Of a stretch of DNA of 64,000 nucleotides, positions 1,851 through 45,920 are shown one piece after another. The translations under genes were made by a program, and so were the position numbers. This DNA is from Roseicella sp. DB1501 (GTDB taxonomy: Bacteria; Pseudomonadota; Alphaproteobacteria; Acetobacterales; Acetobacteraceae): positions 124,001 through 188,000 of the forward strand of contig NZ_JABFHG010000012.1 of the NCBI RefSeq assembly GCF_013112485.1. Direction: 5' to 3'. The notes beneath the pieces are model-generated. The model saw only the letters and a program-made list of their open reading frames with translations, did not search any database and was not told the DNA's origin. Numbering within the stretch: the stretch's first letter is position 1; every line of letters begins with the position of its first letter.

Positions 1851-2729
1851 TCAGTCTTCGACCGGCTCCAGGTCGACGCCGATGGTGAGCCCGTGGTCGC
1901 CGCCGCCGAGCATCACGCCGCGCACCGGGCTGATATCGCCGTAATCGCGGCCCCAGCCGAGCACCACATGCTCCTCCTGCACCACCACGCCATTGGTCGG
2001 GTCCAGCTCGACCCAGCCATGATCGGCGCCGAGCCAGGCGCCGACCCAGGCATGGCTCTGGTCGGCGCCGCGCCGGCGCGGCTGGCCGGGCGGCGGCCGG
2101 GTGCGGATATAGCCGGAGGTGTAGCGCGCCGGCAGGCCGATGGCGCGCAGCCCGCTGATCATCAGATGGGTGAAGTCCTGGCACACGCCCTCGCGCCGCT
2201 CCAGCACCTCGGCGACCTGCGTCGAGAGGTCGGTGACACCGGCGCGGAAGCGGAAATCGGCGCGGATCCGCGCATTCAGATCGAGCAGCCCGGCCAGCAC
2301 CGGCCGGCCGGGCGGGAAGCTCGCGCCGACATACGCCCCGGCCGCCGCGACGGCCGGGCACATCGGGCTGTCGAAGCGGTATTCCACCGCCTCCCAGGCG
2401 CCCGGGCCGCCGGCGCGCGCCGCCTCGCGCACCGCCTCCCAGGGCGGCGTCGCCGCCGCCGCGGGCGGCGCGGGATAGCGCACCGCCACCTCGGCCTCGG
2501 CCGTCACCTCGAAGAGGTCGTGCGGCGCATCGATGAACAGCCAGGTCACGGCATTGCCGAAATGGTCGAGCCCGTCCCGCCGCCGCGCCGCCGCGGGCAG
2601 GCTGGTGAGGTCGGCGCTGCGCACCTGCTGGTAGGGCAGGTCGCGCGGCCGGAGGTGCAGCATATGCGCCGCGAGGTCCACCGTGCTGCCATAGGCGTAG
2701 CGGGTGGTATGGCGGACCCGGTAGATCAC
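1851..2729 (-). CDS. Transglutaminase-like cysteine protease-fold protein (small, 292 aa)
   Basis: It starts with MIYRVRHTTRYAYG, the conserved N-terminal beta domain of bacterial transglutaminase-like proteins. The catalytic triad is complete: Cys183 in REGVCQDFTHL, His226 in QSHAWVGAW and Asp243 in ELDPTNG. No signal peptide is seen, so it is probably cytosolic. Its ATG overlaps the stop of the upstream ATP-grasp/alpha-E gene by 4 bases, so the two are translationally coupled. Comparative genomics groups this family with circularly permuted ATP-grasp and alpha-E proteins in predicted peptide-bond-forming or -cleaving systems. The substrate is unknown; hydrolysis or transpeptidation are both possible. 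Confidence 0.85.
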   Translation of the reverse strand: MIYRVRHTTRYAYGSTVDLAAHMLHLRPRDLPYQQVRSADLTSLPAAARRRDGLDHFGNAVTWLFIDAPHDLFEVTAEAEVAVRYPAPPAAAATPPWEAVREAARAGGPGAWEAVEYRFDSPMCPAVAAAGAYVGASFPPGRPVLAGLLDLNARIRADFRFRAGVTDLSTQVAEVLERREGVCQDFTHLMISGLRAIGLPARYTSGYIRTRPPPGQPRRRGADQSHAWVGAWLGADHGWVELDPTNGVVVQEEHVVLGWGRDYGDISPVRGVMLGGGDHGLTIGVDLEPVED

Positions 2730-5260
2730 GCCGCGCCGCGCATCCGGATGGCGGGGGCGGGGCCGAGGCTGTGCGGCGCCGGCAGCAGCGCGAACCAGCG
2801 CCGCGCGATGCGGTTCGAGAGCGTCGCCACCTCCCCCTCCAGCGCCGCGAGGCGCGGCCGCAGCCGCAGCACCGCCTCGGCCTGGGAGGAGGCCTCCGCC
2901 ACCTCCCGCACCATCGCCCTGGCCTCCTCCAGCAGGGATTGCGCGAGTTGCGACAGCGGGCCGCCCGCCTCGCCCTCGAGATCGGCCAGCATGTCCCGCG
3001 CCGCCTCGAGCTGGAAGGCGAGGCCGCGCGGATTGCCCTCATCCGCCAGCACCAGGTCGAGCACCGGGGCCGGCTGCAGCGCGGTGAGGTAGCGGCTGCG
3101 ATAGGTGATGACGGAATCCCGCAGCTCGAGGGCCAGCCGCAGCCCGGGCTCGAGCCGCGCCGGCTGCGCTGCGGCGCCCGGCTGGTCGAGCACCCGGTGC
3201 AGCTCGGCGGCGATCGCCTGCGCCCGCTCCACCCGCCGGCCGAGATCGAGGAAGAGCCGGCCGCCGCCCCGCACCATGTTCTCGGCGGCGAGGCCGGCCA
3301 CGGTGGCGGCGAAGGCGAGCACCGCAACGCTGACATGGCCGAGCGCATCGAGGCTGCGCGCCTCCTCCCGCGCTTCCTCCCGCCTGGCCGGGACGGCGCG
3401 GAAGGCCTCGGTGAGCTCCCGCATGCCGCGGTTGAGGGCGAGGTGCATCTCGCCGGTCAACCGGTCGCGCAGCAGGTCGGCGAGGCGCCCGACCTGGCCC
3501 AGCAGCCCCGGCAGGCGGCCGCGCTCCCGCACCGCCCGGAGCAGCACCCGCGCGACCGGCACGGTGCCGATCTCGCGCGCCGTCTCGCTGTCGAGCAGGT
3601 CGGCCCGGACCAGGCAGGCGGCGAGGCTCTTCAGCTCGGCCAGGGCCCGCGGGCCCGGATCGCTGACGGCGAGGCGCGACGCGCTGGCCCGCAGCAGCCG
3701 CGCCGCCGTCTCCAGCCGTTCGAGGTAGCGGCCGAGCCAGAAGAAATTATCGGCGACCCGGCTCGGGATGTCGCCGCTGCCGCGGCGGATCGGCAGGGCG
3801 CGGATGCTGGCCTGCGGCGGCCCCTGGACCTCCCCCGGCTCCTGCATCGGCACCCAGACATCCTTGCTGAAGCGCATGCCGGGCCGGGCGCCGGTGCCGG
3901 GATCGGGCGCGGCGAGGGCGCGGGCGAGGCCGCCCTGCAGCGCCTGCCAGCGCTGGCCGTCATGCACTAGGAAGAGCCGCAGGATGACCGGCCGCGGCTC
4001 CAGCCCCTGCGGCCCGGCGCAGGGCGCGACGGAGGCGGGCAGCGCCTCGGAGACGACGTATTCCTCCGGCGCGGCGAGGATGCGCCCGGCCAGCTCGGCC
4101 CGCGCCGCTGCGGGCAGCGCCCCGGCGGTGACCGACTGCACCGTGCCGTCCACCGCCCGCCGCACCAGCCAGCGGCCGAGATCGCCCAGCACCTGCTCCC
4201 GCACCGCCAAATCCCCCAGCCAGAGGGTGCGGGCATCGGCGAGGCGCAGCCGCTCGCCGAGCAGCCGCGGCGCCAGGCCGGCGAGGAAGGCGGCGAGCGC
4301 CGGCGCCTCGGCGAAGCCGGCCCCGGGATCGTTGACGATGCGGACGGAGCCCGCCCGCATCGCGTCGAGCAGGCCGGCGACGCCATGCGAGGGACTCTGG
4401 TCGCCCTCCAGCGGGTCCATCTGCCGCCCGTCCAGCCGGCGCAGCAGCACATCGACGGGCTGCAGCCCGCGCAGCGTCTTCAGGAACAGCGCGCCGTCGC
4501 GCACGGTGAGGTCGCCGCCCTCGACCAGGGCGCAGGACAGGCGGCGGGAGAGGATGACGTGCTCGTACCAGTGCGGGCTGGAAGGCCCGCCGGTGAGCAT
4601 GGCGACGCCGGGGTTGCGGCCGGCGGCACCGGGCGGCGCCAGGCGCTGCAGCGCATCCTGCCAGATGTCGAAGAAGGGCCCATGCCGCCGCAGTTGCCGC
4701 GCCCGCGTCAGCTCGGGCACGGTGCGCGCCAAGGCGCGGCGGTTCTCCAGCACATGCGCGAGGCCGGTCGGGCCGGCGCTGCGATCGGCCAGCACGCGCC
4801 AGCCGCCATCCGGGGCGCGCAGCAGGTCGGCGGCGTAGAGATGCAGCAACGGCCCCTCGCGCCGGCCCGCCGCGGCGCGGCAGGAGCGGAGGAAGGCCGG
4901 GTTGGCATAGACCAGGGCCGGTGGCAGCAGCCCCTCGGCGAGGAGCTGCTGCGGCCCGTAGACATCCTGCAGCACCGCCTCGAGCAGGCTCGCCCGCTGC
5001 GCCAGGCCCTCGGCCAGGGCATCGAATTCGGCCGGCGCTAGCAACATGGGCACCGGGTCGCAGCGCCAGGCGGGCATGTCGGACTCGCCGGGGAGAAGGC
5101 TGGTCGCGCCTTCCTCGATGAAATGTCGGTCGAGCAGCGCCGCCCGCCCAGCGAGCTCGCCGCGGCCGAGCGTCGAGAGGGCGCCGAGCAAGCCGCCCCA
5201 ATGGGGACGGATGCCGCCGGCGCCATCCACCATCTCATCGAGCGGGGCGGCTTCTGTCAT
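2726..5260 (-). CDS. Fused circularly permuted ATP-grasp + alpha-E domain protein
   Basis: An 844-residue fusion. Residues about 65-490 are a circularly permuted ATP-grasp (DUF404/407 type), with LVEGGDLTVRDGALFLKTL (245-263) and GLQPVDVLLRR (265-275). From about residue 499 comes the helical alpha-E domain (DUF403), opening RVADNFFWLGRYLERLETAA. The two domains are more often separate adjacent genes. ATP-grasp enzymes of this kind are predicted amidoligases that form an amide or peptide bond through an acyl-phosphate; alpha-E is thought to assist, role unknown. It is coupled to the small transglutaminase downstream and lies 154 bases after the large transglutaminase. The ribosome site is weak, and Met10 is another possible start. 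Confidence 0.85.
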   Translation of the reverse strand: MTEAAPLDEMVDGAGGIRPHWGGLLGALSTLGRGELAGRAALLDRHFIEEGATSLLPGESDMPAWRCDPVPMLLAPAEFDALAEGLAQRASLLEAVLQDVYGPQQLLAEGLLPPALVYANPAFLRSCRAAAGRREGPLLHLYAADLLRAPDGGWRVLADRSAGPTGLAHVLENRRALARTVPELTRARQLRRHGPFFDIWQDALQRLAPPGAAGRNPGVAMLTGGPSSPHWYEHVILSRRLSCALVEGGDLTVRDGALFLKTLRGLQPVDVLLRRLDGRQMDPLEGDQSPSHGVAGLLDAMRAGSVRIVNDPGAGFAEAPALAAFLAGLAPRLLGERLRLADARTLWLGDLAVREQVLGDLGRWLVRRAVDGTVQSVTAGALPAAARAELAGRILAAPEEYVVSEALPASVAPCAGPQGLEPRPVILRLFLVHDGQRWQALQGGLARALAAPDPGTGARPGMRFSKDVWVPMQEPGEVQGPPQASIRALPIRRGSGDIPSRVADNFFWLGRYLERLETAARLLRASASRLAVSDPGPRALAELKSLAACLVRADLLDSETAREIGTVPVARVLLRAVRERGRLPGLLGQVGRLADLLRDRLTGEMHLALNRGMRELTEAFRAVPARREEAREEARSLDALGHVSVAVLAFAATVAGLAAENMVRGGGRLFLDLGRRVERAQAIAAELHRVLDQPGAAAQPARLEPGLRLALELRDSVITYRSRYLTALQPAPVLDLVLADEGNPRGLAFQLEAARDMLADLEGEAGGPLSQLAQSLLEEARAMVREVAEASSQAEAVLRLRPRLAALEGEVATLSNRIARRWFALLPAPHSLGPAPAIRMRGAA

Positions 5261-5414
5261 GCGCCAAGGGTGATGCCATGGCTGTCGCGCGCAGGCGAGG
5301 GGGAGACGCCCTGGCCCGGACCGGCGGCATGCATCTCCCGTCCCAGCCGGGCGCCCGGTCAGGCGCTTCTGCCGAGGCGGGCCGTCGATGAGGCGCCATC
5401 GACGGCCGCCGGCA

Positions 5415-8400
5415 TCAGCCCGCCCGCCGCAGGTCGAGGGAGCGCGGCGCCTCCGGCGCGGGCAGGACGCGCGGCTCGGGCATCGGCCCCGGCGTGTGGC
5501 CGAAGGGCTGGAAGCGGGTGCGGCGGCGCGCCTCCGCTTCGTTGGCGTTCACCGGCAGCGTCTCGTAATTGCGGCCGCCCGGATGCGCCACGTGATGCGT
5601 CAGCCCGCCGAGGCTGCGGCCGGTCCAGCGGTCATAGATGTCGAAGACCAGCGGCGCCTGCGCCCGGATGGTCGGATGCAGGGCGGAGGGCGGGTCCCAG
5701 GCCTTGAAGCGCACGCCGCCGACGAACTCGCCCACCGTCTCGGTGCGGGTCAGCGGCACCTCGTAGCCGTTGCAGGCGAGGGCGTAGCGCTCCTCCACCC
5801 AGCCGCTGACGCGCGCCTGCAGCCGCTCGGTGCTGCTGTCGACATAGCGCACCGTGCCGCCGCCGCCCGGCTCCTCGCCCAGCACGTGCCAGGGCTCCAG
5901 CGCATGCCGCAACTCCAGCCCGATGCCGCGCAGGGTCACCTCGCCGATGCGCGGGAAGCGGAATTCCAGGTGCGGGGCGAACCACTCCTGGTCGAGCGGG
6001 AAGCCCAGCATGGCCAGCTCGCGCAGGCTGTCGGCGAAATCCTGCTCGACGAAATGCGGCAGCATGAACTCGTCGTGTAGCCGCGTGCCCCAGCGGACCA
6101 GGCGGCGGTCATAGGGGGTGCGCCAGAAGGCGGCGAGGGCGCTGCGCATCAGCAACATCTGCGCCGCCGACATCCGGGCATGCGGCGGCATCTCCAGCGC
6201 CCGGTACTCCACCAGGCCGAGCCGGCCCGAACTGCTCTCGGGCGCGTACATCTTGTCGATGCAGAACTCGGTGCGGTGGGTGTTGCCGGTCATGTCCGCC
6301 AGGATGTTGCGGAACAGCCGGTCGGTCAGCCAGGGCGGCGTCTCCTTCCCCGGCGCGATCTTCGAGAAGGCGATCTCGAGATCCGCCAACGCGTCCTGCC
6401 GTGCCTCGTCGACGCGCGGATGCTGGCTGGTCGGGCCGATGAAGAGGCCGCTGAACAGGTAGGAGAGGCTCGGATGGTTGTGCCAGAAGCCGAGCAGGCT
6501 CTTCAGCAGGTCCGGCCGGCGCAGGAAGGGACTGTCGGCCGGCCGCTCGCCGCCCATCACCACGTGGTTGCCGCCGCCGGTGCCGACATGGCGGCCGTCG
6601 AGCATGAATTTCTCGGCCGAGAGCCCGACCTGCCGCGCCTCCTCGTAGAGCTGCTCGGTGCGCTCCACCATCTCCGGCCAGGAGGCGGCGGGGTGGATGT
6701 TCACCTCGATCACGCCGGGGTCCGGGGTGACGGAGAAATGCAGCAGCCGCTCGTCGCGCGGCGGCAGGTAGCCTTCCAGGATCACCTTGCGGTCGGTCTC
6801 CGCGGCCGTCGCCTCGACGGCGGCGGCGAGGTCGAGCCAGTCCTCGGCGGCATAGAGCGGCGGGAAGAAGACATGCACCAGCCCGCCCCGCGCCTCGACC
6901 GCGAGGGCGGTGCGCACCACGCCCGGATCGGAGCGGCCGACCACCGGCAGCTCCTGCGGCTGCGGCCGGAAATGCTCCGCCCCCAGGGCGGGGCCCGTGG
7001 CCGAGGCCGTGCCGTCGGCGCGGCCAAGGCCGAGCTGCGGGTCCTGCGGCATCAGGCGCTGGCCGGGCAGGGGCTGGCTGGGCAGGGGCTGGCCGCCGCG
7101 GCCGCGCTCGAAGGCCTGGCGGGGCGGCAGCGGCGCGACCGGTGCGAAGGGATCGGCCTCGGTCTCAAGGACCCGCGCCGCATCCGCCTCCGACATCCAG
7201 GGCAGGCTGTCCAGCGGCAGGCGGAAGCCGATCGGGCTGTCGCCCGGCACCAGGAAGAGATGCTCGCCGCGGAAGAACCAGCGCCCGCCCTGCCAGCGCC
7301 GAAGGCCGTCCCGCATCACCCGGCGGATCGGCAGCACCGCGCCGACCTCGGCGGCGAGCCCCTGGCCGAAGACCTTGGCCAGCCGCGCCCGCTCCAGCGG
7401 GTCCTGCAGCTTCGCATCCTCGACGACGACATTGGCCGGCAGGCGCTTCTCGCGCCAGAGATGGTAGTGGATGTCCTCGTAGGCCGGGGCGACGAGCCCG
7501 GGATCGACCTGCAGCCGCTCGGCCAGCAGGCGGGCGAAGCGCGCGGCATCGGCCGCGGTCGCGCTGTCGCGGTCGTCGTCGGAGGCGAGGAGCTCGGGGT
7601 TCTTCCAGACCGGCTCGCCATCGCGGCGCCAGTGCGAGTAGAGCGCCCAACGGGGAAGCTGCTCGCCCGGATAGTGCTTGCCCATGGCGTATTGCAGCGC
7701 GGCGCCGGGCGACCAGAGCGGCGCCAGCCGGCGCAGCAGGCGTCCCGCATAGGCCCGCTTGGTCGGGCCGAGCGCCGCGGTGTTCCACTCCGGCGCATCC
7801 ATGTCGTCGGCGGCGATGAAGGTCGGCTCGCCGCCCATGGTCAGGCGGAGGTCGCCCTCGCGGAGCGCGCCGTCCACCATCCGGCCGCGGGCGAGGATGT
7901 CCTGCCACTGCTGCTCGGTATAGGGCTTGGTGACGCGCGGCGTCTCTCGCAGGCGGGTGACCGACATGGCGAAGCCGAACTCGGTCTCCGCCTTCTCGAC
8001 CAAGCCGGTGATCGGCGCGGCGGAGACGGGTTCCGGCGTCGCGGCCAAGGGGATGTGGCCCTCGCCGGCCATCAGGCCGGAGGTCGCGTCCAGCCCGACC
8101 CAGCCGGCGCCGGGCAGGTAGACCTCGGCCCAGGCATGCAGGTCGGTGAAGTCCTCGCTCGGGCCTTCCGGCCCATCCAGCGGCTTCACATCGGCGACGA
8201 GCTGGATGAGGTAGCCGGAGACGAAGCGCGCGGCATAGCCGAGATGCCGCAGGATCTGCACCAGCAGCCAGGCGCTGTCGCGGCAGGAGCCGCGGCCGTT
8301 GCCGAGCGTCTCCTCCGGCGTCCAGACGCCGGGCTCCATGCGCACGACATAGGCGGTCCGCTCCTGCACCTGGCGGTTCAGCCCCACCAGCATGTCCACC

Positions 8401-8822
8401 GTGCGCTGCTCGGTCCGCGGGATGCCGTCGAGGAATTGCCGCAGCAGCGGGCCTGGCGTCTCCAGCTTGCGGAAGGGTGCCAGCTCCTGCTCCAGCACCG
8501 GGTCGTAGGCGAAGGGCCAGGTCTCGGCCTCGGGCTCGAGGAAGAAGTCGAAGGGATTGATCGTCGCCATGTCGGCGACGAGGTCGACCTCCACGCTGAA
8601 CTGCGTCACCCGCTCGGGGAAGACGACCCGCGCCAGGTGGTTGCCCTGCGGATCCTGCATCCAGTTCAGGAAATGCGGCTTCGGCTCGACCTTCAGCGCG
8701 TAGCTGACGATCGGCGTGCGGGCATGCGGCGCCGGCCGCAGCCGGATGGTCTGCGGGCCAAGGGTGACCGCATGGTCGTAGCGGTAGCTGGTGCGGTGGT
8801 TGAGGGCGACGTGGAGCGGCAT
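5415..8822 (-). CDS. Large transglutaminase-like protein with C-terminal DUF2126
   Basis: A 1135-residue protein. Residues 1-about 300 form a transglutaminase module: N-terminal beta domain (ALNHRTSYRYDHAVTLGPQ), Cys180 in GNGRGSCRDSAW, His229 in FTDLHAWAEV and Asp245 in WVGLDATSG. The rest, from about residue 330, is DUF2126 with the signature LRLTMGGEPTF. The start was placed at MPLHVALNHR because the open frame upstream (to 8954) has no family similarity. No signal peptide is seen. It is first in the minus-strand cluster with the ATP-grasp/alpha-E and small transglutaminase genes. This family is large and conserved, but its reaction is not established. Confidence 0.85.
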   Translation of the reverse strand: MPLHVALNHRTSYRYDHAVTLGPQTIRLRPAPHARTPIVSYALKVEPKPHFLNWMQDPQGNHLARVVFPERVTQFSVEVDLVADMATINPFDFFLEPEAETWPFAYDPVLEQELAPFRKLETPGPLLRQFLDGIPRTEQRTVDMLVGLNRQVQERTAYVVRMEPGVWTPEETLGNGRGSCRDSAWLLVQILRHLGYAARFVSGYLIQLVADVKPLDGPEGPSEDFTDLHAWAEVYLPGAGWVGLDATSGLMAGEGHIPLAATPEPVSAAPITGLVEKAETEFGFAMSVTRLRETPRVTKPYTEQQWQDILARGRMVDGALREGDLRLTMGGEPTFIAADDMDAPEWNTAALGPTKRAYAGRLLRRLAPLWSPGAALQYAMGKHYPGEQLPRWALYSHWRRDGEPVWKNPELLASDDDRDSATAADAARFARLLAERLQVDPGLVAPAYEDIHYHLWREKRLPANVVVEDAKLQDPLERARLAKVFGQGLAAEVGAVLPIRRVMRDGLRRWQGGRWFFRGEHLFLVPGDSPIGFRLPLDSLPWMSEADAARVLETEADPFAPVAPLPPRQAFERGRGGQPLPSQPLPGQRLMPQDPQLGLGRADGTASATGPALGAEHFRPQPQELPVVGRSDPGVVRTALAVEARGGLVHVFFPPLYAAEDWLDLAAAVEATAAETDRKVILEGYLPPRDERLLHFSVTPDPGVIEVNIHPAASWPEMVERTEQLYEEARQVGLSAEKFMLDGRHVGTGGGNHVVMGGERPADSPFLRRPDLLKSLLGFWHNHPSLSYLFSGLFIGPTSQHPRVDEARQDALADLEIAFSKIAPGKETPPWLTDRLFRNILADMTGNTHRTEFCIDKMYAPESSSGRLGLVEYRALEMPPHARMSAAQMLLMRSALAAFWRTPYDRRLVRWGTRLHDEFMLPHFVEQDFADSLRELAMLGFPLDQEWFAPHLEFRFPRIGEVTLRGIGLELRHALEPWHVLGEEPGGGGTVRYVDSSTERLQARVSGWVEERYALACNGYEVPLTRTETVGEFVGGVRFKAWDPPSALHPTIRAQAPLVFDIYDRWTGRSLGGLTHHVAHPGGRNYETLPVNANEAEARRRTRFQPFGHTPGPMPEPRVLPAPEAPRSLDLRRAG

Positions 8823-9028
8823 GGACGGGGGTAGCCTGCGAGGGAATCGCCGTGGGTTAGAGCAAAAGCGGCGCCATTGCGGGCATGACGATCCCGGGAT
8901 GGTGGGTTGCGCGCAGCGTCCAGGCAATGCCCAAAGCGGAGGCAAACGCGCCATCCGGGATGCATCGACGGCAGGCGGTCGGCTGTCCTAGGCTCGCTGT
9001 AAGGAGACTGCGGGAGGAAAGGTCGAGC

Positions 9029-9769
9029 ATGGCACGCCCAGGCAAGGTGATGCAGAGTTTCGCCGCGGCGCTCGCGGATATTCCCGATGGCGCCGTCATC
9101 GCCTTCGGCGGCTTCGCCGGGCCGGGCACGCCCTACAATCTCACCCGGGCGCTGCTCGCCCAGGGGGCGAAGCGCCTGACCTGCATCGCCAATACCACCG
9201 GTGGCGCGCAGCAGCCGCGCATGCCCGATATCGGCATGCTGGTGGAGAACGGGCAGGTGGCGAAGGTGGTCTGCAGCTTCACCGCGGCGACGCGGCCGAG
9301 CGACGTGCTGCCCTTCACTCGCTTCTACGAGGCCGGCGAGGTCGAGGCCGAGCTGGTGCCGCAGGGCACGCTCGCCGAGCGGTTGCGCGCCGCGGGCGCC
9401 GGCATCCCCGCCTTCTACACGCCGACCGCGGTGGGCACCGAGCTCGCCGAGGGGCGCGAGACGCGGGTGATCAACGGCCGCGAATACCTGCTGGAATACG
9501 CGCTGCCCTGCGACGTCGCCCTGCTGCGCGCCTGGCGCGCGGATGCCGCCGGCAACCTGCAATACAGGCGCAGCCAGCGGAATTTCGGCCCGCTGATGGC
9601 GATGGCAGCGCGCCTCGCGATCGTCGAGGTGGAGGAGCCGATCCTGCCGGCGGGGGCGCTCGACCCGGACCAGATCCACACGCCCGGCATCTTCGTCCAG
9701 CGCCTCGTCGCCATCCCGCCCGCGCCCGAGGGGCTCTGGACCACCCGCCGGCAGGAGCGCGCGCGGTGA
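9029..9769 (+). CDS. CoA-transferase subunit A (3-oxoacid / AtoD-like)
   Basis: A 246-residue class I CoA-transferase alpha subunit. It shows DGAVIAFGGFAGPGTPYNL near the N terminus and CDVALLRAWRADAAGNLQYR, typical of the CoA-binding subunit. The start at 9029 follows a strong GGGAGGAAAGG; the open frame upstream of it has no family similarity. The stop overlaps the GTG start of subunit B. With B it should move CoA between an acyl-CoA and a carboxylate, for example in ketone-body, 3-oxoadipate or similar acid catabolism. The substrate cannot be assigned from sequence alone. Confidence 0.85.
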   Translation: MARPGKVMQSFAAALADIPDGAVIAFGGFAGPGTPYNLTRALLAQGAKRLTCIANTTGGAQQPRMPDIGMLVENGQVAKVVCSFTAATRPSDVLPFTRFYEAGEVEAELVPQGTLAERLRAAGAGIPAFYTPTAVGTELAEGRETRVINGREYLLEYALPCDVALLRAWRADAAGNLQYRRSQRNFGPLMAMAARLAIVEVEEPILPAGALDPDQIHTPGIFVQRLVAIPPAPEGLWTTRRQERAR

Positions 9770-10416
9770 GCGGCGCCGCATCGACCGGCTGGGACCGGCA
9801 GCAGATGGCGGATCGCCTGGCGCGTGAATTCCAGGATGGCTGGATCGTCAATCTTGGCGTCGGCCTGCCGACCCTCTGCTCCAACACCGACATAGGCGAC
9901 CGCGACATCGTCTATCATGCGGAGAACGGCGTCATCGGCTACGGGCCGGTGCTGCCCCCGGGCGAGGAGGACCTGCATCTGGTCAATGCCGGCGGGCAGA
10001 ATGTCTCGCTGCAGCCGGGCGCCGCCATCGTCCACCATGCCGACAGCTTCGGCATCATCCGCAGCGGCCGCATCGATGTCACGGTGATGGGCGCCTACGA
10101 GGTCTCGGCCGGCGGCGACTTCGCCAATTGGCGGCTGGCCGGCGCCAAGGGGGGCGGCATCGGCGGCGCCATGGACCTCGCCGCCTGCGCCCGGCGGGTC
10201 TTCCTGCTGCTCGAGCACACCACTCGCAAGGGCGAGCCGCGGCTGGTGGCGCGCTGCCGCCTGCCGGTGACGGCGCGCGGCGTGGTGACGCTGGTGGCCA
10301 CGAATTACGGTCTCTTCGCCCCGACCGGCGAGGGCTTCGCGGTGCGCGAGCTGGCGCCGGGCATCGACCTGGCGACCGCGCGGGCCGCCACCGGCGCGCC
10401 GCTGCTGCCGGCGTGA
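9766..10416 (+). CDS. CoA-transferase subunit B (3-oxoacid / AtoA-like)
   Basis: A 216-residue class I CoA-transferase beta subunit. It carries the catalytic glutamate as Glu53 in HAENGVIGYGP, the family ENG-x-x-G motif, and the conserved GAKGGGIGGAMDL further on. It starts with GTG at 9766, overlapping subunit A by 4 bases (GTGA). Its own stop overlaps the next GTG start in the same way, so these genes are translationally coupled. It pairs with the preceding gene as a heteromeric acyl-CoA:carboxylate CoA-transferase. Confidence 0.87.
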   Translation: MSGAASTGWDRQQMADRLAREFQDGWIVNLGVGLPTLCSNTDIGDRDIVYHAENGVIGYGPVLPPGEEDLHLVNAGGQNVSLQPGAAIVHHADSFGIIRSGRIDVTVMGAYEVSAGGDFANWRLAGAKGGGIGGAMDLAACARRVFLLLEHTTRKGEPRLVARCRLPVTARGVVTLVATNYGLFAPTGEGFAVRELAPGIDLATARAATGAPLLPA

Positions 10417-10940
10417 CGCCGCCCTGCTTCCGGACCACGCGGCTGCGGCTGCGGCCGCGCCGCCTGGAGGACACCGAGGCCTGCCTCGCCATGGATCGCG
10501 AGCCGGCGGTGCTCCGCCATATCGACGGGCCCTGGGACGACGCCGCGGCGCATCGGGCCTTCATCGAGGCTCGCACCCGCGGCCCCTGGCCGGCAGGCCT
10601 CGGCTACTGGGTGGTGGAGGCGGGCGGCGCCTTCCTCGGCTGGGTCCTGCTGATCCCGGAGGATGCGCGGGGGCCGGAGGTCGAGATCGGCTGGCGCCTC
10701 CGCCGCGCCGCCTGGGGGCAGGGCATCGCCACCGAGGCGGCGGCGGCGCTGCTGCCGCATGCCTTCCGCCGGCTCGGCCTGCCGCGCATCATCGCCGACA
10801 TCAACCCGGCGAATCACGCCTCGCTCGCGGTTGCCCGCAAGCTCGGGCTGCGGCCGGGGGCCTGGCAGGGCCGCTATCTCCGGCATGCGCTGGAGCGGGC
10901 GGCCTGGCAGCGGGCCGAGGATGGGAAGGAGTCTCCATGA
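10413..10940 (+). CDS. GNAT-family N-acetyltransferase (RimJ/RimL-like)
   Basis: A 175-residue protein with a GTG start at 10413 that overlaps the CoA-transferase B stop by 4 bases. It opens with TTRLRLRPRRLEDTEACLAM. The acetyl-CoA binding stretch is IGWRLRRAAWGQGIATEA, and the C-terminal NPANHASLAVARKLGLRP is typical of the RimJ/RimL branch. It should acetylate an amine on a protein N terminus, antibiotic or small molecule. The substrate is unknown. Coupling to CoA-transferase and isomerase genes suggests it is expressed with that catabolic unit. Confidence 0.8.
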   Translation: MTPPCFRTTRLRLRPRRLEDTEACLAMDREPAVLRHIDGPWDDAAAHRAFIEARTRGPWPAGLGYWVVEAGGAFLGWVLLIPEDARGPEVEIGWRLRRAAWGQGIATEAAAALLPHAFRRLGLPRIIADINPANHASLAVARKLGLRPGAWQGRYLRHALERAAWQRAEDGKESP

Positions 10941-11542
10941 CCTTGCACATCGACTACTACGCCTCGCTGAACTCGCCCTGGACGCATCTCGGCGCGGCGC
11001 GGATCGAGGCGCTGGCGGCGCAGCACGGCGCCACGCTGCGGATCTGGCCGGTGGATTTCGGCACCATCTTCGCCGGCTCCGGCGGGCTGCCCCTGCCGAA
11101 GCGCAGCCCGCAGCGCCAGGCCTACCGGCTGCAGGAGCTGGCGCGCTGGCGCGAGCATCGCGGCATCCCGATCCAGATCCGGCCGAAGCATTTCCCCGCC
11201 AATGAGCTGCCGGGCGCCTGCGCGGTGATCGCGGCGCGGGAGAGCCTGGGCGATGCGCCGGCGATCCGCCTCGCCCACCGCATCCTGAAGGCGCTCTGGG
11301 AGGAGGAGCAGGATCCCGGCGCGCCGGAAACCCTGGCCCGGCTGGTGACCGAGGCGGGCCTCGATCCGGCGACCCTGCTGCCCCTGTCGCAGGAGCCGCG
11401 CTGGGCCGCGATGCGCGAGTGCGACACGGCGGCGGCGCTGGCCCGCGGCGTCTTCGGGGCGCCGAGCTACGTCATCGGCGAGGACATCTTCTGGGGCCAG
11501 GACCGGCTGGAATTCGTGGAGAAGCGCTTGGCACGGGGCTGA
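10937..11542 (+). CDS. DsbA-family 2-hydroxychromene-2-carboxylate isomerase-like protein
   Basis: A 201-residue thioredoxin-fold protein of the kappa-GST/HCCA isomerase branch. It reads IDYYASLNSPWTHLGAARIE, with Ser13-Pro14 in place of a DsbA CXXC, and ends with GVFGAPSYVIGEDIFWGQDR, the conserved cis-Pro region. HCCA isomerases use glutathione to isomerise a naphthalene-pathway intermediate; many homologues act on other aromatic substrates. The ATG overlaps the GNAT stop (ATGA) and GGAAGGAG precedes it. Together with the CoA-transferase pair, an aromatic or organic-acid breakdown role is plausible but not shown. Confidence 0.8.
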   Translation: MTLHIDYYASLNSPWTHLGAARIEALAAQHGATLRIWPVDFGTIFAGSGGLPLPKRSPQRQAYRLQELARWREHRGIPIQIRPKHFPANELPGACAVIAARESLGDAPAIRLAHRILKALWEEEQDPGAPETLARLVTEAGLDPATLLPLSQEPRWAAMRECDTAAALARGVFGAPSYVIGEDIFWGQDRLEFVEKRLARG

Positions 11543-11643
11543 GGGGCAGCGGCTGGGCGCCCGTGCCAGGCCGTGGCACGATGCGCCAAAGGCTTTGAGG
11601 AGCAAGCCATGGCCCGCCGCCGGACGGCATCGGAGCTTGCCCC

Positions 11644-13953
11644 ATGATCGGCGAGAGCCGGCGCCGGGTCGAGGATGCCCGCTTCCTCACCGGCCAGGGG
11701 CGCTATGTCGCGGATCTGGTCCCGCCCGGGGCGCTGCAGGCTGCGGTGCTGCGTTCGCCGCATGCGCATGCCGGGCTGCTTGCCATCGACGCCGCGGCGG
11801 CGCGCGCCATGCCGGGGGTCGCCCTGGTCCTCACCGGCGAGGACCTCGCCGGCGAGGGGATCGGCCCGCTACCCTGCCCGGCGGTGGTGCAGACCATCGG
11901 CCCGCTCATCATTCCCGAGCGGCATGCCCTGGCGCGGGGCGCGGTGCGGCATGTCGGCGAGCCGGTGGCGCTCGTCGTCGCGGAGAGCCTGGCGGCAGCG
12001 CGCGACGCGGCCGAGGCGATCGAGGTCGCCTACGATCCCCGGCCGGCGGTGGTCGACAGCCGCGCCGCGCTGGCGCCGGGCGCGCCGCAGCTCTGGCCGC
12101 AGGCGCCGGGCAACCGCGCCTTCCGCTTCGAGCGCGGCGACCGCGCCGCCACCGAGGCGGGGTTCGCCGCCGCGGCGCGGATCGTCGAGCTCGACCTGAT
12201 CAACAACCGCGTCCATGCCGCCCCGATCGAGCCGCGCGGTGCCCTCGCCGCCTGGGAGGGCGGGCGCTTCGAGCTGCTGCTCGCCGGCATGGGGGTGCAC
12301 GGGCTGCGGCGGCAGCTCGCCACGGTCTTCGGCCTGCCGGAGGCGGCCTTCCATCTGCGCTGCCCCGATGTCGGCGGCGGCTTCGGGCTGAAGAACTTCC
12401 TCTTCCCCGAGCATGTGGCGCTGCTCGCCGCGGCCCGCCGGCTGGGCCGGCCGGTCGCCTGGATCGGCGCGCAGAGCGAGGAATTCCAGGGCGCCGTGCA
12501 TGGCCGCGACCTGCAGGGCACCGCCCGGCTGGCGCTCGATGCCGAGGGGCGCTTCCTCGCCCTGCAGGCCCGGCTGGCCGCCGATATGGGCGCCTATTGC
12601 TCGGCGCACGGTCCGGCCTGCCCGACCAATTCCGTCAGCACCGCCATCGGCGGCATCTATGCCATCCCCGCCATCCTGCTGGAGGTGGAGGGCGCCTTCA
12701 CCAACTCCCTGCCGGTCGATGCCTATCGCGGCGCCGGCAAGCCCGAGGCGAACTACCTGACCGAGCGGCTGGTCGAGGCCGCGGCCCGCGCCACCGGCCT
12801 CGACCCGGTGGCGATCCGGCGGCGCAACGCCATCGCCGCCTTTCCCTATCGCAGTGCGACCGGGATGCTGATGGATACCGGCCGCTTCCAGGCCAACCTC
12901 GCCGATCTCGAGGCGCTGCTGGATCGCGAGGGCTTCGCCGCAAGGCGCGCCGAGAGTGCGGCGCGGGGTCGGCTGCGCGGCCTCGGCATCGCCTGTTTCC
13001 TCGAGACCTCGCGCGGCGCGCCGCAGGAATGGGCGGCGCTGCGCTTCGCGCCGGACGGGATGGTGGACATCGTCATCGGCACCCAGTCGAACGGTCAGGG
13101 GCACGAGACCAGCTTCCCGCAGATCGCCGCCGCCTGGCTGGGGCTGGAGGAGAGCCGCTTCCGCCTGGTGCAGGCGGATAGCGACGCGGTCGCCTTCGGC
13201 AACGGCCATGGCGGGGCGCGCTCCCTGCATGTCGGCGGCACCGCCCTGGTCATGGCGCTGGAGCAGGTGATCGCCAAGGCGCGCCGGCTGGCGGCGCATC
13301 TGCTGCAGGTGGCGCCGGATTCGGTGGAATTCGCCGAGGGCTGCTTCACCGTGCCCGCCAATGGGCAGGCGCTGACCCTGGAGGCGCTGATCGAGGCCTC
13401 CTACGACCCGGCCGACCTGCCGGAGGGCATGCCGCCGGGGCTGGATGCCGAGGCGAAGAACCTCTCCGAGCTCGTCACCTTCCCCTCCGGCGCGCATGCC
13501 GCCGAGGTGGAGGTCGATCCCGAGACCGGCGCCGTGGCGCTGCTGCGCTACCAGGCGGTGGACGACTACGGCTGCCTGGTGAACCCGATGCTGACGGCCG
13601 GCCAGGTGCAGGGCGGCCTCGCCCAGGGCATCGGCCAGGCGCTCCAGGAGCGGATCGCCTACGATCCGGAGTCCGGCCAGCTCCTCAGCGCCTCCTTCAT
13701 GGACTACGCCCTGCCGCGCGCCGCCGACCTGCCCGACCTCGCCATCGCCTTCGGCGAGGAGCCGACCCGCTCCAACCCGCTCGGCGTCAAGGGCGTCGGC
13801 CAGGCGGGGGCGATCGGGGCGCCGCAGACGGTGATGCATGCGGTGCTGGACGCGCTGCGGCCGCTCGGCGTCACCGGGCTGCAGATGCCGGCAACGCCGG
13901 AGACGGTCTGGCGGGCGATCCGCGCGGCCGGGCGGGACTCGCCTCAGCTCTGA
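11644..13953 (+). CDS. Xanthine dehydrogenase-family molybdopterin-binding subunit (CoxL-like), active-site Glu replaced by Gln
   Basis: A 769-residue large subunit of a molybdenum hydroxylase. Visible marks are the N-terminal hammerhead region (EDARFLTGQGRYVADL), the cofactor loops PDVGGGFGLKN and VDAYRGAGKPEANYL (from residue 358), and GTQSNGQGHETSFPQIA. The C-terminal catalytic motif normally reads GVKGVGEAG; here it is GVKGVGQAG, with Gln720 (codon CAG, 13801-13803) in place of the base-catalytic Glu. No FAD or iron-sulfur subunit gene lies beside it, so partners must be encoded elsewhere. GGAG sits 8 bases before the ATG. The substrate is unknown. The last 10 bases overlap the convergent AhpD-like gene. 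Confidence 0.85.
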   Translation: MIGESRRRVEDARFLTGQGRYVADLVPPGALQAAVLRSPHAHAGLLAIDAAAARAMPGVALVLTGEDLAGEGIGPLPCPAVVQTIGPLIIPERHALARGAVRHVGEPVALVVAESLAAARDAAEAIEVAYDPRPAVVDSRAALAPGAPQLWPQAPGNRAFRFERGDRAATEAGFAAAARIVELDLINNRVHAAPIEPRGALAAWEGGRFELLLAGMGVHGLRRQLATVFGLPEAAFHLRCPDVGGGFGLKNFLFPEHVALLAAARRLGRPVAWIGAQSEEFQGAVHGRDLQGTARLALDAEGRFLALQARLAADMGAYCSAHGPACPTNSVSTAIGGIYAIPAILLEVEGAFTNSLPVDAYRGAGKPEANYLTERLVEAAARATGLDPVAIRRRNAIAAFPYRSATGMLMDTGRFQANLADLEALLDREGFAARRAESAARGRLRGLGIACFLETSRGAPQEWAALRFAPDGMVDIVIGTQSNGQGHETSFPQIAAAWLGLEESRFRLVQADSDAVAFGNGHGGARSLHVGGTALVMALEQVIAKARRLAAHLLQVAPDSVEFAEGCFTVPANGQALTLEALIEASYDPADLPEGMPPGLDAEAKNLSELVTFPSGAHAAEVEVDPETGAVALLRYQAVDDYGCLVNPMLTAGQVQGGLAQGIGQALQERIAYDPESGQLLSASFMDYALPRAADLPDLAIAFGEEPTRSNPLGVKGVGQAGAIGAPQTVMHAVLDALRPLGVTGLQMPATPETVWRAIRAAGRDSPQL

Positions 13954-14516
13954 GGGCGGGTTCCGAAGCCGTCGAGGGCCGCTTCCGCCTCGTCCTCCTC
14001 GTCGATCTGCAGGGCGTCGTTGAAGCGGTTGAAGAAGCCGCAGAGGGTGATGCGCAGGGTCAGCTCGACGAGCTGCGCCTCGGACAGCACGCTGCGCAGC
14101 CGCTGCACCAGCGCCTCCGGGATGCGGTTCGGCGTCTCCCAGGCGGCGATGGCGTATTGCACCACCAGCCGGTCGGCCTCGTCGAGCTCGGGATGCTCGC
14201 GCCAGTCCATGATGCGGTCGATGCCCTCGGGGCTGATCCCCTCCACCACCAGGAAGGGCTTGTGGTGGGCGACGCAGTAGTGGCAGGCATTGAGGTTGGA
14301 GACGACGACGATGGCGAGCTCGAGATAGCGCTTCGGCAGGGTCTTCGCCTCACGCAGCTCCATCAGCATCGGCATCAGGTGGCGCAGCGCCGCCGGGACA
14401 TGGGCGAGGACCGCGACCTGGTTGCGGAAGGGGCCGTATTCCGCGGCGAAGCGCTCGTAGATGGCCGCCAGACCGGGCGGCAATTCGCGGCTGTCGATGT
14501 TGCGGACGCGGGCCAT
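13944..14516 (-). CDS. AhpD-like / carboxymuconolactone decarboxylase-family peroxidase-related protein
   Basis: A 190-residue helical protein with the AhpD active-site motif: Glu66, then Cys78-x-x-Cys81 and His84-His85 in NLNACHYCVAHHK. The uncharacterised peroxidase-related branch has this length. Such proteins reduce peroxides using the vicinal cysteines. The start was set at MARVRNIDSRELPPG rather than at the longer frame (14564). It lies 82 bases downstream of an Rrf2-type regulator on the same strand, so the two may form a redox-response pair. Convergent with, and overlapping by 10 bases, the molybdenum hydroxylase gene. Confidence 0.82.
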   Translation of the reverse strand: MARVRNIDSRELPPGLAAIYERFAAEYGPFRNQVAVLAHVPAALRHLMPMLMELREAKTLPKRYLELAIVVVSNLNACHYCVAHHKPFLVVEGISPEGIDRIMDWREHPELDEADRLVVQYAIAAWETPNRIPEALVQRLRSVLSEAQLVELTLRITLCGFFNRFNDALQIDEEDEAEAALDGFGTRPQS

Positions 14517-14598
14517 GGCGTTCTTCCCCCCTGGGCGGGCCACCCGACCGGGACAGTGGGGCAATTCCCGTGCGCGGCAAGTATGGCGCCGGGGCGCC

Positions 14599-15048
14599 TC
14601 AGATCACGAAGTTCAGCGGCTCGACGGTCGGCCGCCGCACCCCGGCGGCGGCGGCGCGCTTGATCAGATCGGCGATGGTGAGCTTCGAGAGATGGTCCCG
14701 GCACAGCCCCTCCAGCTCCATCCAGAGGGGCTGCACCACCGCCGCCTGCAGCCGGCCGGCCGGCTGCTCGCCGCCCGCGCCATCCTCATCGAGCGCGGTG
14801 GCGACGATCTCGGCCAGGCGCAGGTCGCGCGGCGGCCGGCCAAGGCGGTAGCCGCCCTTCGGGCCGCGGATGCTGTCGAGCAGCCCGGCGCGGGAGAGGG
14901 ATTGCAGCACCGGCTCGATGCCTCGGCGGGCCTGTCCCAGCCGCTCGGCGATGTCGGCGGCGGAGACGGCCTCGGTGCGGCCGGCATGGAAGGCGACGTC
15001 GAGCATGATGGCCACCGCCGTCATCGCCCGTTCCCGGCGCAGCAGCAT
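14599..15048 (-). CDS. Rrf2-family transcriptional regulator lacking the Fe-S cysteines
   Basis: A 149-residue winged-helix regulator. MLLRRERAMTAVAIMLDVAF and the recognition-helix/wing region VLQSLSRAGLLDSIRGPKGG (46-65) are typical of Rrf2. IscR and NsrR use three cysteines to hold an iron-sulfur cluster; only Cys116 is present here, so this is probably a cluster-free member. Start chosen at MLLRRER over the longer frame at 15075, by family fit and a GGGGGAAA just upstream. A small inverted repeat TCGA-N7-TCGA at 15108-15122 may be its own operator. Likely partner: the AhpD-like gene downstream. Confidence 0.82.
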   Translation of the reverse strand: MLLRRERAMTAVAIMLDVAFHAGRTEAVSAADIAERLGQARRGIEPVLQSLSRAGLLDSIRGPKGGYRLGRPPRDLRLAEIVATALDEDGAGGEQPAGRLQAAVVQPLWMELEGLCRDHLSKLTIADLIKRAAAAGVRRPTVEPLNFVI

Positions 15049-29411: not shown

Positions 29412-30322
29412 CCGCGGCCACTCCTCGTCGCGCCCTGGGCCTTCTGGCCGGCCGCCGGGGGCTCGGCCGGCTGCTGGCCCGGCGCCATGCGCAGCACCAG
29501 CTTGTCCGGCAGGCGCAGGTCGATCGCCGCCAGCGGCCGGTCCATCAGCCCCTGCTTCGCCTGCAGCTCGGCGAGGCGGGCAACCGCCGCGGCCTCCTGG
29601 CCCTCCGGCAGCAGCACGTCGGCGCCGTTGCGCAGCCGCAGGTTCCAGCGCCGCTCGGAGACGCGCACCAGCGCGTGCACGCGCTCCTGCACCTCCGGCA
29701 CCGCCTGCAGCACGTCGATCATCGGCCCGGCCGCGCGGTCGGCGCCGGTGCCGACGATCAGCGGCAGGCGGCCGAAGGCGCCGACATTCTCGGTGGCCAC
29801 CACCTTGCCCTCGCGGTCGATGACCGAGAATTTGCTCTCGCGCTGCCAGATGGCGAAGGGCTGCCGCTCGTCGAGCCGCACCTTGATCGTGCCGGGCAGC
29901 AGGCGCTCGACATGCGCGTGCTCGACCCAGGCGATCTGCTCGAGCTGCTCGCGCGCCCAATGCGGGTCGAAGCCGAGCATCGGATCGCCGCGCCGCACCG
30001 ACAGCGCCTCGCGCACCAGCTCGGGCGGCGTGTTGCGCATGCCGTCCACCAGCACGTCCTGCACCTGCAGGCCGCCGCCAGCCGCGATCTCCGCCGCGCC
30101 ATCCCAGAGGGCGGCGATGCGGCCATAGGGATCGGTCGCCATCACCGCCACCGCGGTGACCAGCAGGGCGCCGGCGCCGAGCAGGCCGAGCCCGGCGGGC
30201 CGCAGCAGCCCGCGGCGACGGCGCAGCCAGAGCCGCAGCGAGGTCGGCCGGTCCAGCGCGCTGCCGGCCGTGCCGCGCGCGCGGCGCGACCCTCCCTCGC
30301 CGCGTTGCGGGCTACGCGCCAT
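29408..30322 (-). CDS. ftsQ: Cell division protein FtsQ
   Basis: A 304-residue bitopic divisome protein. It has a basic cytoplasmic N terminus, one membrane segment (about 41-62), then a POTRA domain (VQDVLVDGMRNTPPELVREA) and the FtsQ beta domain (VRLDERQPFAIWQRESKFSV). It bridges early and late division proteins together with FtsL and FtsB. The start was taken at MARSPQRGEG (30322), which overlaps ddl by 11 bases; a longer frame to 30376 is possible but unlikely. The C terminus is Pro/Gly/Gln-rich. Confidence 0.93.
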   Translation of the reverse strand: MARSPQRGEGGSRRARGTAGSALDRPTSLRLWLRRRRGLLRPAGLGLLGAGALLVTAVAVMATDPYGRIAALWDGAAEIAAGGGLQVQDVLVDGMRNTPPELVREALSVRRGDPMLGFDPHWAREQLEQIAWVEHAHVERLLPGTIKVRLDERQPFAIWQRESKFSVIDREGKVVATENVGAFGRLPLIVGTGADRAAGPMIDVLQAVPEVQERVHALVRVSERRWNLRLRNGADVLLPEGQEAAAVARLAELQAKQGLMDRPLAAIDLRLPDKLVLRMAPGQQPAEPPAAGQKAQGATRSGRG

Positions 30323-31232
30323 GGCGGGCCTGCTCCACCATCCAGGCGCAGAGCGCGGGGAAGGGGATGCCGACATGCGCCGCCTGCTCCGGCACCAGCG
30401 AGGTGCGGGTCATGCCCGGCTGGGTGTTGACCTCGAGCAGATAGAGCCGGCCGGGCTCGCCGGCCGTGTCGTCGTAGCGGAAATCGGCGCGCGAGACGCC
30501 GCGGCAGCCGAGCGCCCGGTGCGCGGCGAGGGCGGCGGCCATGGCCTGGCGCTCGATCTCCGGATGCACCGGCGCCGGCACCGCGTGGCGGCTGCCGCCA
30601 TCGGCGTATTTCGCGTCGTAGTCGTAGAATTGCAGGTCGGTGGTGATCTCGGTCACGGCGAGCGGCCGGTCGCCCATGACGGCGACGGTCAGCTCGCGGC
30701 CCGGGATGTAGGGCTCGACCATGATGCGCGGCCCGAAGCGCCATTCGCGGGCGATGGCCGCGCGACGGTTGTCGCCCTCCCGCAGGATCGTCACCCCGAC
30801 CGAGGAGCCCTCATTCGGCGGCTTCACCACGAAGGGCCGCGGCATCGGGTCCGCCGCCTCGAGCTCCTCCGGCGTGACCAGCAGGTGGCGCGCCAGCGGG
30901 AGGTCCGCCGAGGCCAGCACCGCCTTCGCCGCCGGCTTGTCCATGGCGATCGCCGAGGCGCGGACGCCGGAGCCGGTATAGGGAAGCTGCAGCCAGTCCA
31001 GCACGCCCTGGATGCAGCCATCCTCGCCGAAGCGGCCATGCAGCGTGTTGAAGACGGCGTCGGGCTTCGCCGCCTGCAGCGCCGCGATGACGGCGGCGAG
31101 GTCCTCACCCACCTCGACCGGCACCACCTCGAACCCCGCCTCGCGCAGCGCCGCGATGCACTGCCCGCCGGAGGCGAGGCTCACCTCGCGCTCGGCTGAG
31201 ATGCCACCGAAAAGGACCGCGACGCGGGTCAT
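30312..31232 (-). CDS. ddl: D-alanine--D-alanine ligase Ddl
   Basis: A 306-residue ATP-grasp enzyme that makes the D-Ala-D-Ala dipeptide for MurF. It opens RVAVLFGGISAEREVSLASG, has NTLHGRFGEDGCIQGVLDWL, the ATP loop PNEGSSVGV and the metal-binding YLLEVNTQPGMTRTSLVPE. The length matches DdlB. It overlaps murB upstream by 4 bases and ftsQ downstream by 11, in the classic murB-ddl-ftsQ order. Confidence 0.96.
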   Translation of the reverse strand: MTRVAVLFGGISAEREVSLASGGQCIAALREAGFEVVPVEVGEDLAAVIAALQAAKPDAVFNTLHGRFGEDGCIQGVLDWLQLPYTGSGVRASAIAMDKPAAKAVLASADLPLARHLLVTPEELEAADPMPRPFVVKPPNEGSSVGVTILREGDNRRAAIAREWRFGPRIMVEPYIPGRELTVAVMGDRPLAVTEITTDLQFYDYDAKYADGGSRHAVPAPVHPEIERQAMAAALAAHRALGCRGVSRADFRYDDTAGEPGRLYLLEVNTQPGMTRTSLVPEQAAHVGIPFPALCAWMVEQARHGA

Positions 31233-32179
31233 GCTGCTGCTCCACCACCCTCAGACCCGTCCGGCAAGGCGAGCCCGAGGCGCTTGATTTCCCATTCAAG
31301 GGCGATGCCAGTCCGGACGAGGACGCGGGCGCGCACCTCCTCGCCCAGGGCTTCCAGCTCGGCGGCGGTGGCGCCGCCGGCGTTGAGCAGGAAGTTGCAG
31401 TGCTTCTCCGAGACCTGCGCGCCGCCGATGGCGAGGCCGCGGCAGCCCGCGGCATCGATCAGCGCCCAGGCCTTGCCGCCAGGCGGGTTCACGAAGGTCG
31501 ATCCGCCGGTGCGGGCGCGCACTGGCTGCGAGGCCTCGCGCGCCGCGCGGATCTCGGCCATGCGCGCGGCGATGGCAGCCGGCTCGCCCGGCCTGGCCCG
31601 GAAACGGGCGCGGATGACGACGGCGCCCCCCGGCAGCGCGGCATGGCGGTAGGTGAAGCCGAGCACGGCGGCATCGAGGCGGCGGATACCGTCGGCGGTC
31701 GCGACCTCCGCCCAGTCCAGCACGTCCTTCACCTCCGAGCCGTAGGCCCCGGCATTCATCGCCACGGCGCCGCCGATGCTGCCCGGGATGCCGGAGAGGA
31801 ATTCGAGGCCGCCGAGCCCGGCCGCGGCGGCATGCTGCGCCACGGTCATGTCGAGCGCCGCGGCGCCGGCCACGATGCCGTCTGGCTCGGCCGTCACCGC
31901 GCCGAAGGCGCCGCCGAGGCGCAGCACGATGCCGGGCAGGCCGCCGTCGCGGATGATCAGGTTCGAGGCGGCGCCGAGCACGGTGAGCGGCGTCCCGGCC
32001 GGCAGCCCGGCGAGCAGCGAGACCAGGTCCTCGGCATCGGCCGGCCGCACCAGCCATTCCGCCGGCCCGCCGACGCGGAACCAGGTGAAGGGCGCGAGCG
32101 GCGCCCCCGCCTGCACCCGGCCGCGAATCGCCGGGATCGCGCGCGGCCCGCCGGCGGTCATCGCCCCCCGCGCGCTCAT
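31229..32179 (-). CDS. murB: UDP-N-acetylenolpyruvoylglucosamine reductase MurB
   Basis: A 316-residue FAD enzyme reducing enolpyruvyl-UDP-GlcNAc to UDP-MurNAc with NADPH. FAD-binding parts are [28 protein letters not shown] and [19 protein letters not shown]. The catalytic serine lies in [11 protein letters not shown], and the C terminus [15 protein letters not shown] is the type II MurB signature. Start at 32179, with an ATGA overlap with the murC stop; Met7 is an alternative. Confidence 0.95.
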
Positions 32180-33612
32180 GCCCGCCTCAGCGGCGTGACG
32201 CGGCCGCCCGGCTGCAGCGCCTGCAGCTGCTCCGGCAGGGCATGCGCCCAGCCGGTGATGCTGCCGGCGCCGAGGCAGACCACGTAGTCGCCCGGCTTGG
32301 CGATGGCGTTGACCATCTCGGCCAGGCTCTCCGGCCCGGGCAGGGGCACCACGCTGCGATGGCCGCGGGCGCGCAGCCCCTCGACCAGCGAGTCCTTGTC
32401 GACGCCCTCGATCGGCGCCTCGCCCGCCGCATAGACATCGGCGACGATGACCGTGCCGGCGTCGTTCATGCAGGTGCAGAACTCCTCGAACAGCCCGGCG
32501 AGGCGCGAGTAGCGGTGCGGCTGCACCACCGCGATCACGTCCCGCGCACCGGCCTGGCGGGCCGCCTTCAGCACCGCCGCGATCTCGACCGGATGATGGC
32601 CGTAATCGTCGATCACCTGGATCCCGCCGGCCTCGCCGACGCGGGTGAAGCGGCGCTTGACGCCCTTGAAGCCGGCGAGGGCGCTGCGGATCGTCTCCTC
32701 GTCGATGTCCATCTCGACGCCGACCGCGATGGCGGCGAGCGCGTTCTGCACGTTGTGCTGGCCGAGCATGGGCAGGCGCATCGGCTTCATGGTGCGGGCG
32801 CGGCCGGTGGTGCGGTCCTGCACCGAGACGGTGAAGGTCGCGCCCATGCGGTCGGTCAGCAGCTTCTCTGCCCGCACATCGGCCTGCGGCGAGAAGCCGT
32901 AGGTGACGATGCGCCGGTCGAGCTTCGGGATCATCGCCTGCACCTCGGGATGGTCGAGGCAGAGGACGGCGAAGCCGTAGAAGGGGATGTTGCTGACGAA
33001 CTGGGCGTAGCCCTCCTTCATCGCCTCCGCCGTGCCCCAGTGGTCGAGATGCTCGGCATCCATGTTGGTGACGATGGTCACGACCGAGGGCAGGCGGAGG
33101 AAGGAGCCGTCGCTTTCATCCGCCTCGACCACCATCCACTCGCCGTCGCCGAGGCGGGTGTTGGTGCCGTAGGCGTTGACGATGCCGCCATTGATGACGG
33201 TGGGGTCGATCTTCGCCGCCTCGAGCACGCAGGCGATCAGGCTGGTGGTGGTGGTCTTGCCATGGGTGCCACCGACCGCGATCGACCATTTCAGCCGCAT
33301 CAGCTCGGCCAGCATCTCGGCCCGGCGCACCACCGGGATCAGCCGGGCGCGCGCCGCCTGGACCTCCGGATTGTCCTTCTTCACCGCCGTCGAGACGACG
33401 ACGACCTGCGCGGCGCCGAGATTCTCCGCGTCATGCCCGACCGAGACCGGGATGCCGGCCTCGCGCAGCCGGGCGACATTGTAGCCCTCGGCGATGTCGC
33501 TGCCCTGCACCTGATAGCCCAGGTTGTGCAGGACCTCGGCGATGCCGGACATGCCGATGCCGCCGATGCCGACGAAGTGGATGGGTCCGATATTGAGGGG
33601 CAGGGCGCGCAT
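32176..33612 (-). CDS. murC: UDP-N-acetylmuramate--L-alanine ligase MurC
   Basis: A 478-residue Mur ligase adding L-Ala to UDP-MurNAc. The Rossmann start is [18 protein letters not shown] and the P-loop [11 protein letters not shown] (114-124). EADESDGSF and the C-terminal [18 protein letters not shown] are both family-specific. The ATG follows the murG stop with no gap (TGAATG), so translation is coupled. Confidence 0.97.
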
Positions 33613-45791: not shown

Positions 45792-45920
45792 CGCCCACTG
45801 ACCGCCCCCCCGGGCCAAGGCGCCCCGCTTGATCAGCGGCCGGCGGGGCCCCCCGACCCCGCCGGCTCGCCCGACCATCCCGCCTCGGACCGCTCGCCCC
45901 CCCGAGCGTCTGGGTCCTCA

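Follow-up and report, generated by a model that had tools for sequence, protein, structure and literature searches.

Gene sets in which a circularly permuted (CP) ATP-grasp protein, an alpha-E protein and a transglutaminase are encoded together were reportedly described by Iyer et al. in 2009. Such a set is present in Roseicella sp. DB1501, where positions 1851-8822 of the window (the whole 64,000 bp stretch analysed, contig NZ_JABFHG010000012.1, positions 124,001 to 188,000) hold three minus-strand genes; Pfam finds adjacent CP-ATP-grasp, alpha-E and transglutaminase domains, the feature by which these sets are recognised. The cluster reportedly shares domain families and operon logic with the Iyer et al. 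sets, as these are cited by others; possible differences are that its gene 3 carries DUF2126 and its fused ATP-grasp lacks the magnesium ligands. The same three families, and a nitrogen response in Pseudomonas putida, are features of the Anbu operon according to the available parts of the reports (PMC6376114, PMC5666114), but the window cluster lacks Anbu, its ATP-grasp falls in a separate clade without magnesium ligands, and the genome holds a separate ATP-grasp, alpha-E and Anbu set on another contig (C12). The available portion of PMC5491218 places a large transglutaminase protein of Burkholderia cenocepacia H111 beside genes annotated as ATP-grasp, alpha-E and transglutaminase (I35_5080-83), with dependence on NtrC and sigma-54; there ATP-grasp and alpha-E lie inside the same cluster, whereas in Roseicella they are on another contig. 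The nearest working analogy for a cycle that makes and breaks an amide is glutathionylspermidine synthetase/amidase (2io7, 2ioa), which has a magnesium site that is lost in the fused ATP-grasp, and in the cluster the amidase candidates are separate transglutaminase-like proteins. Unlike members of the glutamine synthetase family, DUF2126 is fused to a transglutaminase, and the two do not align at the sequence level.

The explanation we favour, giving it about an even chance, is that the cluster supplies the accessory half of a system that makes and breaks amides under nitrogen limitation, in which DUF2126 and an ATP-grasp acting in trans ligate, the transglutaminases cut and the fusion is non-catalytic. 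A sigma-54 promoter would start transcription when nitrogen is short; the amide bond would be made by the glutamine synthetase-fold DUF2126 of gene 3 and a standalone ATP-grasp encoded elsewhere, beside alpha-E and Anbu; two transglutaminase-like Cys-His-Asp enzymes would hydrolyse or transfer the amide; and the ATP-grasp/alpha-E fusion, no longer catalytic, would hold substrate or partner, a binding role that we infer. By analogy with glutathionylspermidine synthetase/amidase, the amide may be a peptide or amine conjugate. This reading joins features computed here, namely domain content, loss of magnesium ligands with the fold kept, the glutamine synthetase fold of the DUF2126 model, co-occurrence and enrichment of sigma-54-like sites, with nitrogen control taken from papers: the action of NtrC and sigma-54 on the B. 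cenocepacia set in the accessible text of PMC5491218, and the nitrogen response in P. putida. A broader version, which we put forward only tentatively, is that a conserved pseudo-ATP-grasp/alpha-E protein, anciently split off, regulates a functional sister ATP-grasp in trans or carries substrate for it without being catalytic itself; together with the glutamine synthetase-fold ligase and two cysteine amidases it would make up a cycle of amide conjugation under nitrogen limitation, spread over several phyla. The original prediction of an amide- or peptide-ligation system lacking a known substrate still fits, except that the cluster's own ATP-grasp is probably not the ligase; the partial literature searched yielded no homologous cluster whose product is proven. 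The domains are widespread and their product is not reported in that literature, and the cluster narrows the question by naming a probably dead ligase, a probably live one, a partner elsewhere in the genome that is likely needed, and nitrogen limitation as the condition, so that a long-standing prediction becomes testable.

Gene 2 (2726-5260) is, as originally described, a CP-ATP-grasp fused to alpha-E, with Pfam matches to CP_ATPgrasp_2 (367.5 bits), CP_ATPgrasp_1 (226.9) and Alpha-E. Catalytic ATP-grasp ligases carry the magnesium ligands D, E and N and a glycine-rich loop. The ATP-grasp domain of gene 2 (3920-5050) keeps the fold, in a predicted model with a mean local confidence (pLDDT) of 90.1 and a template-modelling score (pTM) of 0.90; D145 is kept, E is replaced by A158 and N by R160, and the SGGYG loop and VNSS motif are lost. 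All 84 fused homologues lack ligands E and N and the glycine-rich loop, with arginine in place of N in 76. The metal-binding residues thus seem to be gone, and the domain is predicted from its sequence to be catalytically dead. The suggestion that the fusion ties two activities to one chain is for that reason probably wrong, and the loss of ATP-binding residues, named beforehand as an observation that would count against the predicted ligation system, is what the cluster's ATP-grasp displays. The alpha-E domain (2792-3766; PF04168, 178.2 bits) contains two E-R pairs, E514-R515 and E678-R679, each residue of which is kept in 80 of 81 fused rows.

The candidate ligase lies in gene 3 (5415-8822), whose reading frame is open from 8954, the start at 8822 being the N-terminus common to its relatives. 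Most of the gene is DUF2126 (PF09899; 5427-7997, residues 320-1176, 1253 bits), which Pfam describes as a putative amidoligase, and its predicted model has the glutamine synthetase catalytic fold. Invariant E, H and R residues follow a glutamine synthetase-like order in 69 of 69 rows, though hhalign gives no alignment to GlnA; that DUF2126 is a working ligase is our inference. Upstream of it within the gene, the first transglutaminase region (TG1; 8085-8807, Bact_transglu_N and Transglut_core) has the triad C224/H273/D289, in the numbering of the frame from 8954. The original prediction of a flanking transglutaminase protein here was sound as to TG1 and overlooked the glutamine synthetase-fold DUF2126. 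Gene 1 (1851-2729, GTG start) encodes the second transglutaminase-like protein, TG2, with the same two Pfam domains and the triad C183/H226/D243; the Transglut_core scores of the two proteins are 63.8 and 58.8 bits. Both Cys-His-Asp triads are intact, as had been proposed, and are kept in 81 of 81 (TG1) and 65 of 65 (TG2) aligned rows. No match was returned by an NCBIfam search of the three cluster proteins.

The three genes are partly coupled on their common strand, again as first described, the start of TG2 overlapping the stop of gene 2 by 4 bp and a gap of 154 bp separating gene 3 from gene 2. Named DUF2126 loci, the best 80 of 593 relatives, come by their record titles from Proteobacteria, Verrucomicrobia, Planctomycetes, Nitrospirales and Fibrobacteres, and the closest among them to gene 3 is a metagenome-assembled genome of Acetobacteraceae (72% identity). 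Of these 80, 64 extend 6 kb or more on the downstream side; 59 of them have the fused gene downstream of DUF2126 on the same strand and 58 have TG2, so the gene order is not chance. Co-occurrence was counted genome-wide for ATP-grasp and fusion in a class set of 115 genomes (17 with DUF2126, 98 without) and a family set of 60 (39 with, 21 without), G000 and G026 being common to both, and for Anbu in the class set. The fused gene is found in 14 of the 17 (it is absent from G025, G091 and G112) and in 34 of the 39.

The constant partner sought in the neighbourhood is, very nearly, the standalone ATP-grasp. Taking a bit score above 600 as the standalone type, with motifs inspected only in 34 aligned rows, it occurs in 16 of 17 DUF2126 genomes against 22 of 98 others in the class set (Fisher 2e-8, only a guide because the genomes are related) and in 38 of 39 against 11 of 21 in the family set. 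Among 54 named loci with 6 kb on each side it lies within the locus in 21, in 20 of them with a standalone alpha-E and in 11 on the same strand. In Roseicella, a standalone ATP-grasp that has every motif is encoded on contig C12 side by side with alpha-E and Anbu (best PDB match 5loy, E 1.3e-91), with no adjoining transglutaminase. Two more adjoining transglutaminase-like genes, unlinked to either ATP-grasp set, are present on contig C46 (L010 4350-6384) and are possibly the transglutaminase missing from the Anbu operon. The full five-gene set of standalone ATP-grasp, alpha-E, TG1-DUF2126, fused ATP-grasp/alpha-E and TG2 is found on an Enterobacter plasmid (L043) and a Burkholderia arboris replicon (L044). 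The former is an IncFII plasmid of Enterobacter roggenkampii, on which the set (5672-14863) lies near an IS6 transposase and arsC.

A candidate sigma-54 -24/-12 element, TGGCGCCGCTTTTGC, with one mismatch, is located 39 bp before gene 3 (8862-8876, minus strand); the word is identical in a genome of the same genus (L169), and rpoN is present in the Roseicella genome. Sites of this kind precede 44 of 125 homologues, two of the 127 matching loci having been dropped for position. By comparison, 200 Markov resamplings average 1.2 and never exceed 5, the opposite strand has such a site in 5 of 125, and other genes of the same loci have one in 11 of 937, a lenient control since many of those genes are inside operons. 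Eleven of the 44 are Pseudomonas regions whose sites are near-identical, and the 42 sites within 110 bp comprise 28 distinct words. A dyad-like word, TGCC..CGCTTTGGGCA, slightly more than 100 bp upstream of gene 3 (8928-8944, minus strand) and common to both genus genomes, could be an activator site. In the accessible part of PMC5491218, B. cenocepacia I35_5080-83 (DUF404/407, DUF403, transglutaminase and large transglutaminase protein), which looks like the same set as the cluster, are common NtrC/sigma-54 targets. The parts available of two P. putida studies report PP_2685 and PP_2688 up on nitrate relative to ammonium (PMC8050072) and PP2685-2687 up under nitrogen limitation (PMC3325844).

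It is also conceivable, if rather improbable, that the products modify proteins, with Anbu or a metallopeptidase removing the tag or degrading the protein. Tagging is proposed for the Anbu operon in the available text of PMC6376114 and PMC5666114, and Anbu co-occurs with DUF2126 (13 of 17 class-set genomes against 17 of 98 others). All 30 of the 115 class-set genomes with Anbu matches have a standalone-type ATP-grasp; ten have weak matches only (94-127 bits, below 130), which may be another subtype. Anbu lies near DUF2126 in G091 (L042) and, about 1.9 kb away on the same contig, in G025, which speaks against a sharp division between the two sets. About 1.4 kb past the window's left edge, on the same strand, lies a gene for a Peptidase_Mx zinc metallopeptidase that has a zinc ribbon; this family recurs in 9 of 98 loci searched and, above the cut-off, in 5 of the 17 class-set genomes with DUF2126 and 3 of the 98 without. 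Weighing the other way, a search with a single Anbu query finds it in none of the 80 named DUF2126 loci, four of the 17 DUF2126 genomes have no Anbu match, and no gene for a tag or substrate was found among the recurrent neighbours. The remark that no proteasome-like gene is nearby holds for the window, the genome's single Anbu match being the one on C12.

A mainly catabolic scheme, in which the transglutaminases, as amidases or peptidases, release nitrogen held in amide conjugates and the ligase domains do no more than activate or charge substrate, would account for the nitrogen regulation (the sigma-54-like sites and, as far as their accessible text goes, PMC5491218, PMC8050072 and PMC3325844), for the correlation in marine metagenomes between urea metabolism and the cluster's domains given in the available part of PMC3597751, and for the zinc metallopeptidase neighbour. 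Yet a conserved glutamine synthetase-fold domain with invariant charged residues and a near-constant standalone ATP-grasp point to net synthesis at some step, and we regard this scheme as unlikely. We think it equally unlikely that the fused ATP-grasp works in a changed way, with other magnesium ligands or another nucleotide, which would make gene 2 the ligase, as first supposed, given that the E/N replacement and the missing loop hold throughout the 84 homologues and that arginine is the usual substitute for N.

Several points weigh against the nitrogen-limitation amide cycle that we prefer. The activities and any complex of the window proteins are putative, as is the nature of the substrate. 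GlnA and DUF2126 are not alignable by sequence (hhalign), and Foldseek alone gives no E below 0.001. The fusion is not detected in 3 of 17 class-set and 5 of 39 family-set DUF2126 genomes, so that it is dispensable and its role may be auxiliary, and fusion and TG2 occur without DUF2126 in G012, G044, G057 and G073. No standalone ATP-grasp is detected in two DUF2126 genomes, G099 (84% complete, 640 contigs) and G145 (rated 100% complete, 380 contigs), and in the genome sets intactness is judged by bit score. The window's sigma-54-like site, with its mismatch, is one of two such matches in 64 kb, no more than chance; 81 of the 125 homologues and the C12 Anbu operon have no such site; and NtrC sites are not clearly enriched, the best window match having four mismatches. 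That the large B. cenocepacia protein carries DUF2126 is deduced from the B. arboris locus, and the available part of the regulon account (PMC5491218) does not name the fused gene or TG2. As far as the accessible text of each report goes, expression of the Anbu operon is unchanged across several conditions (PMC5666114), and Yersinia bercovieri Anbu pulled down no operon partners specifically (PMC6376114).

Among the other neighbouring genes, we note that a mutually divergent pair, HlyD-like and MFS (L004 4568-7841), lies between TG2 and the zinc metallopeptidase. Further along the window, positions 30312-45878 on the minus strand hold a putative division and cell-wall run, assigned by eye from the first residues of the translations as D-Ala-D-Ala ligase-like, MurB, MurC, MurD, MraY, MurF, MurE, FtsI, MraW and MraZ-like, and a class A RNase P RNA (Rfam RF00010, 235.6 bits) is present at 46153-46590.
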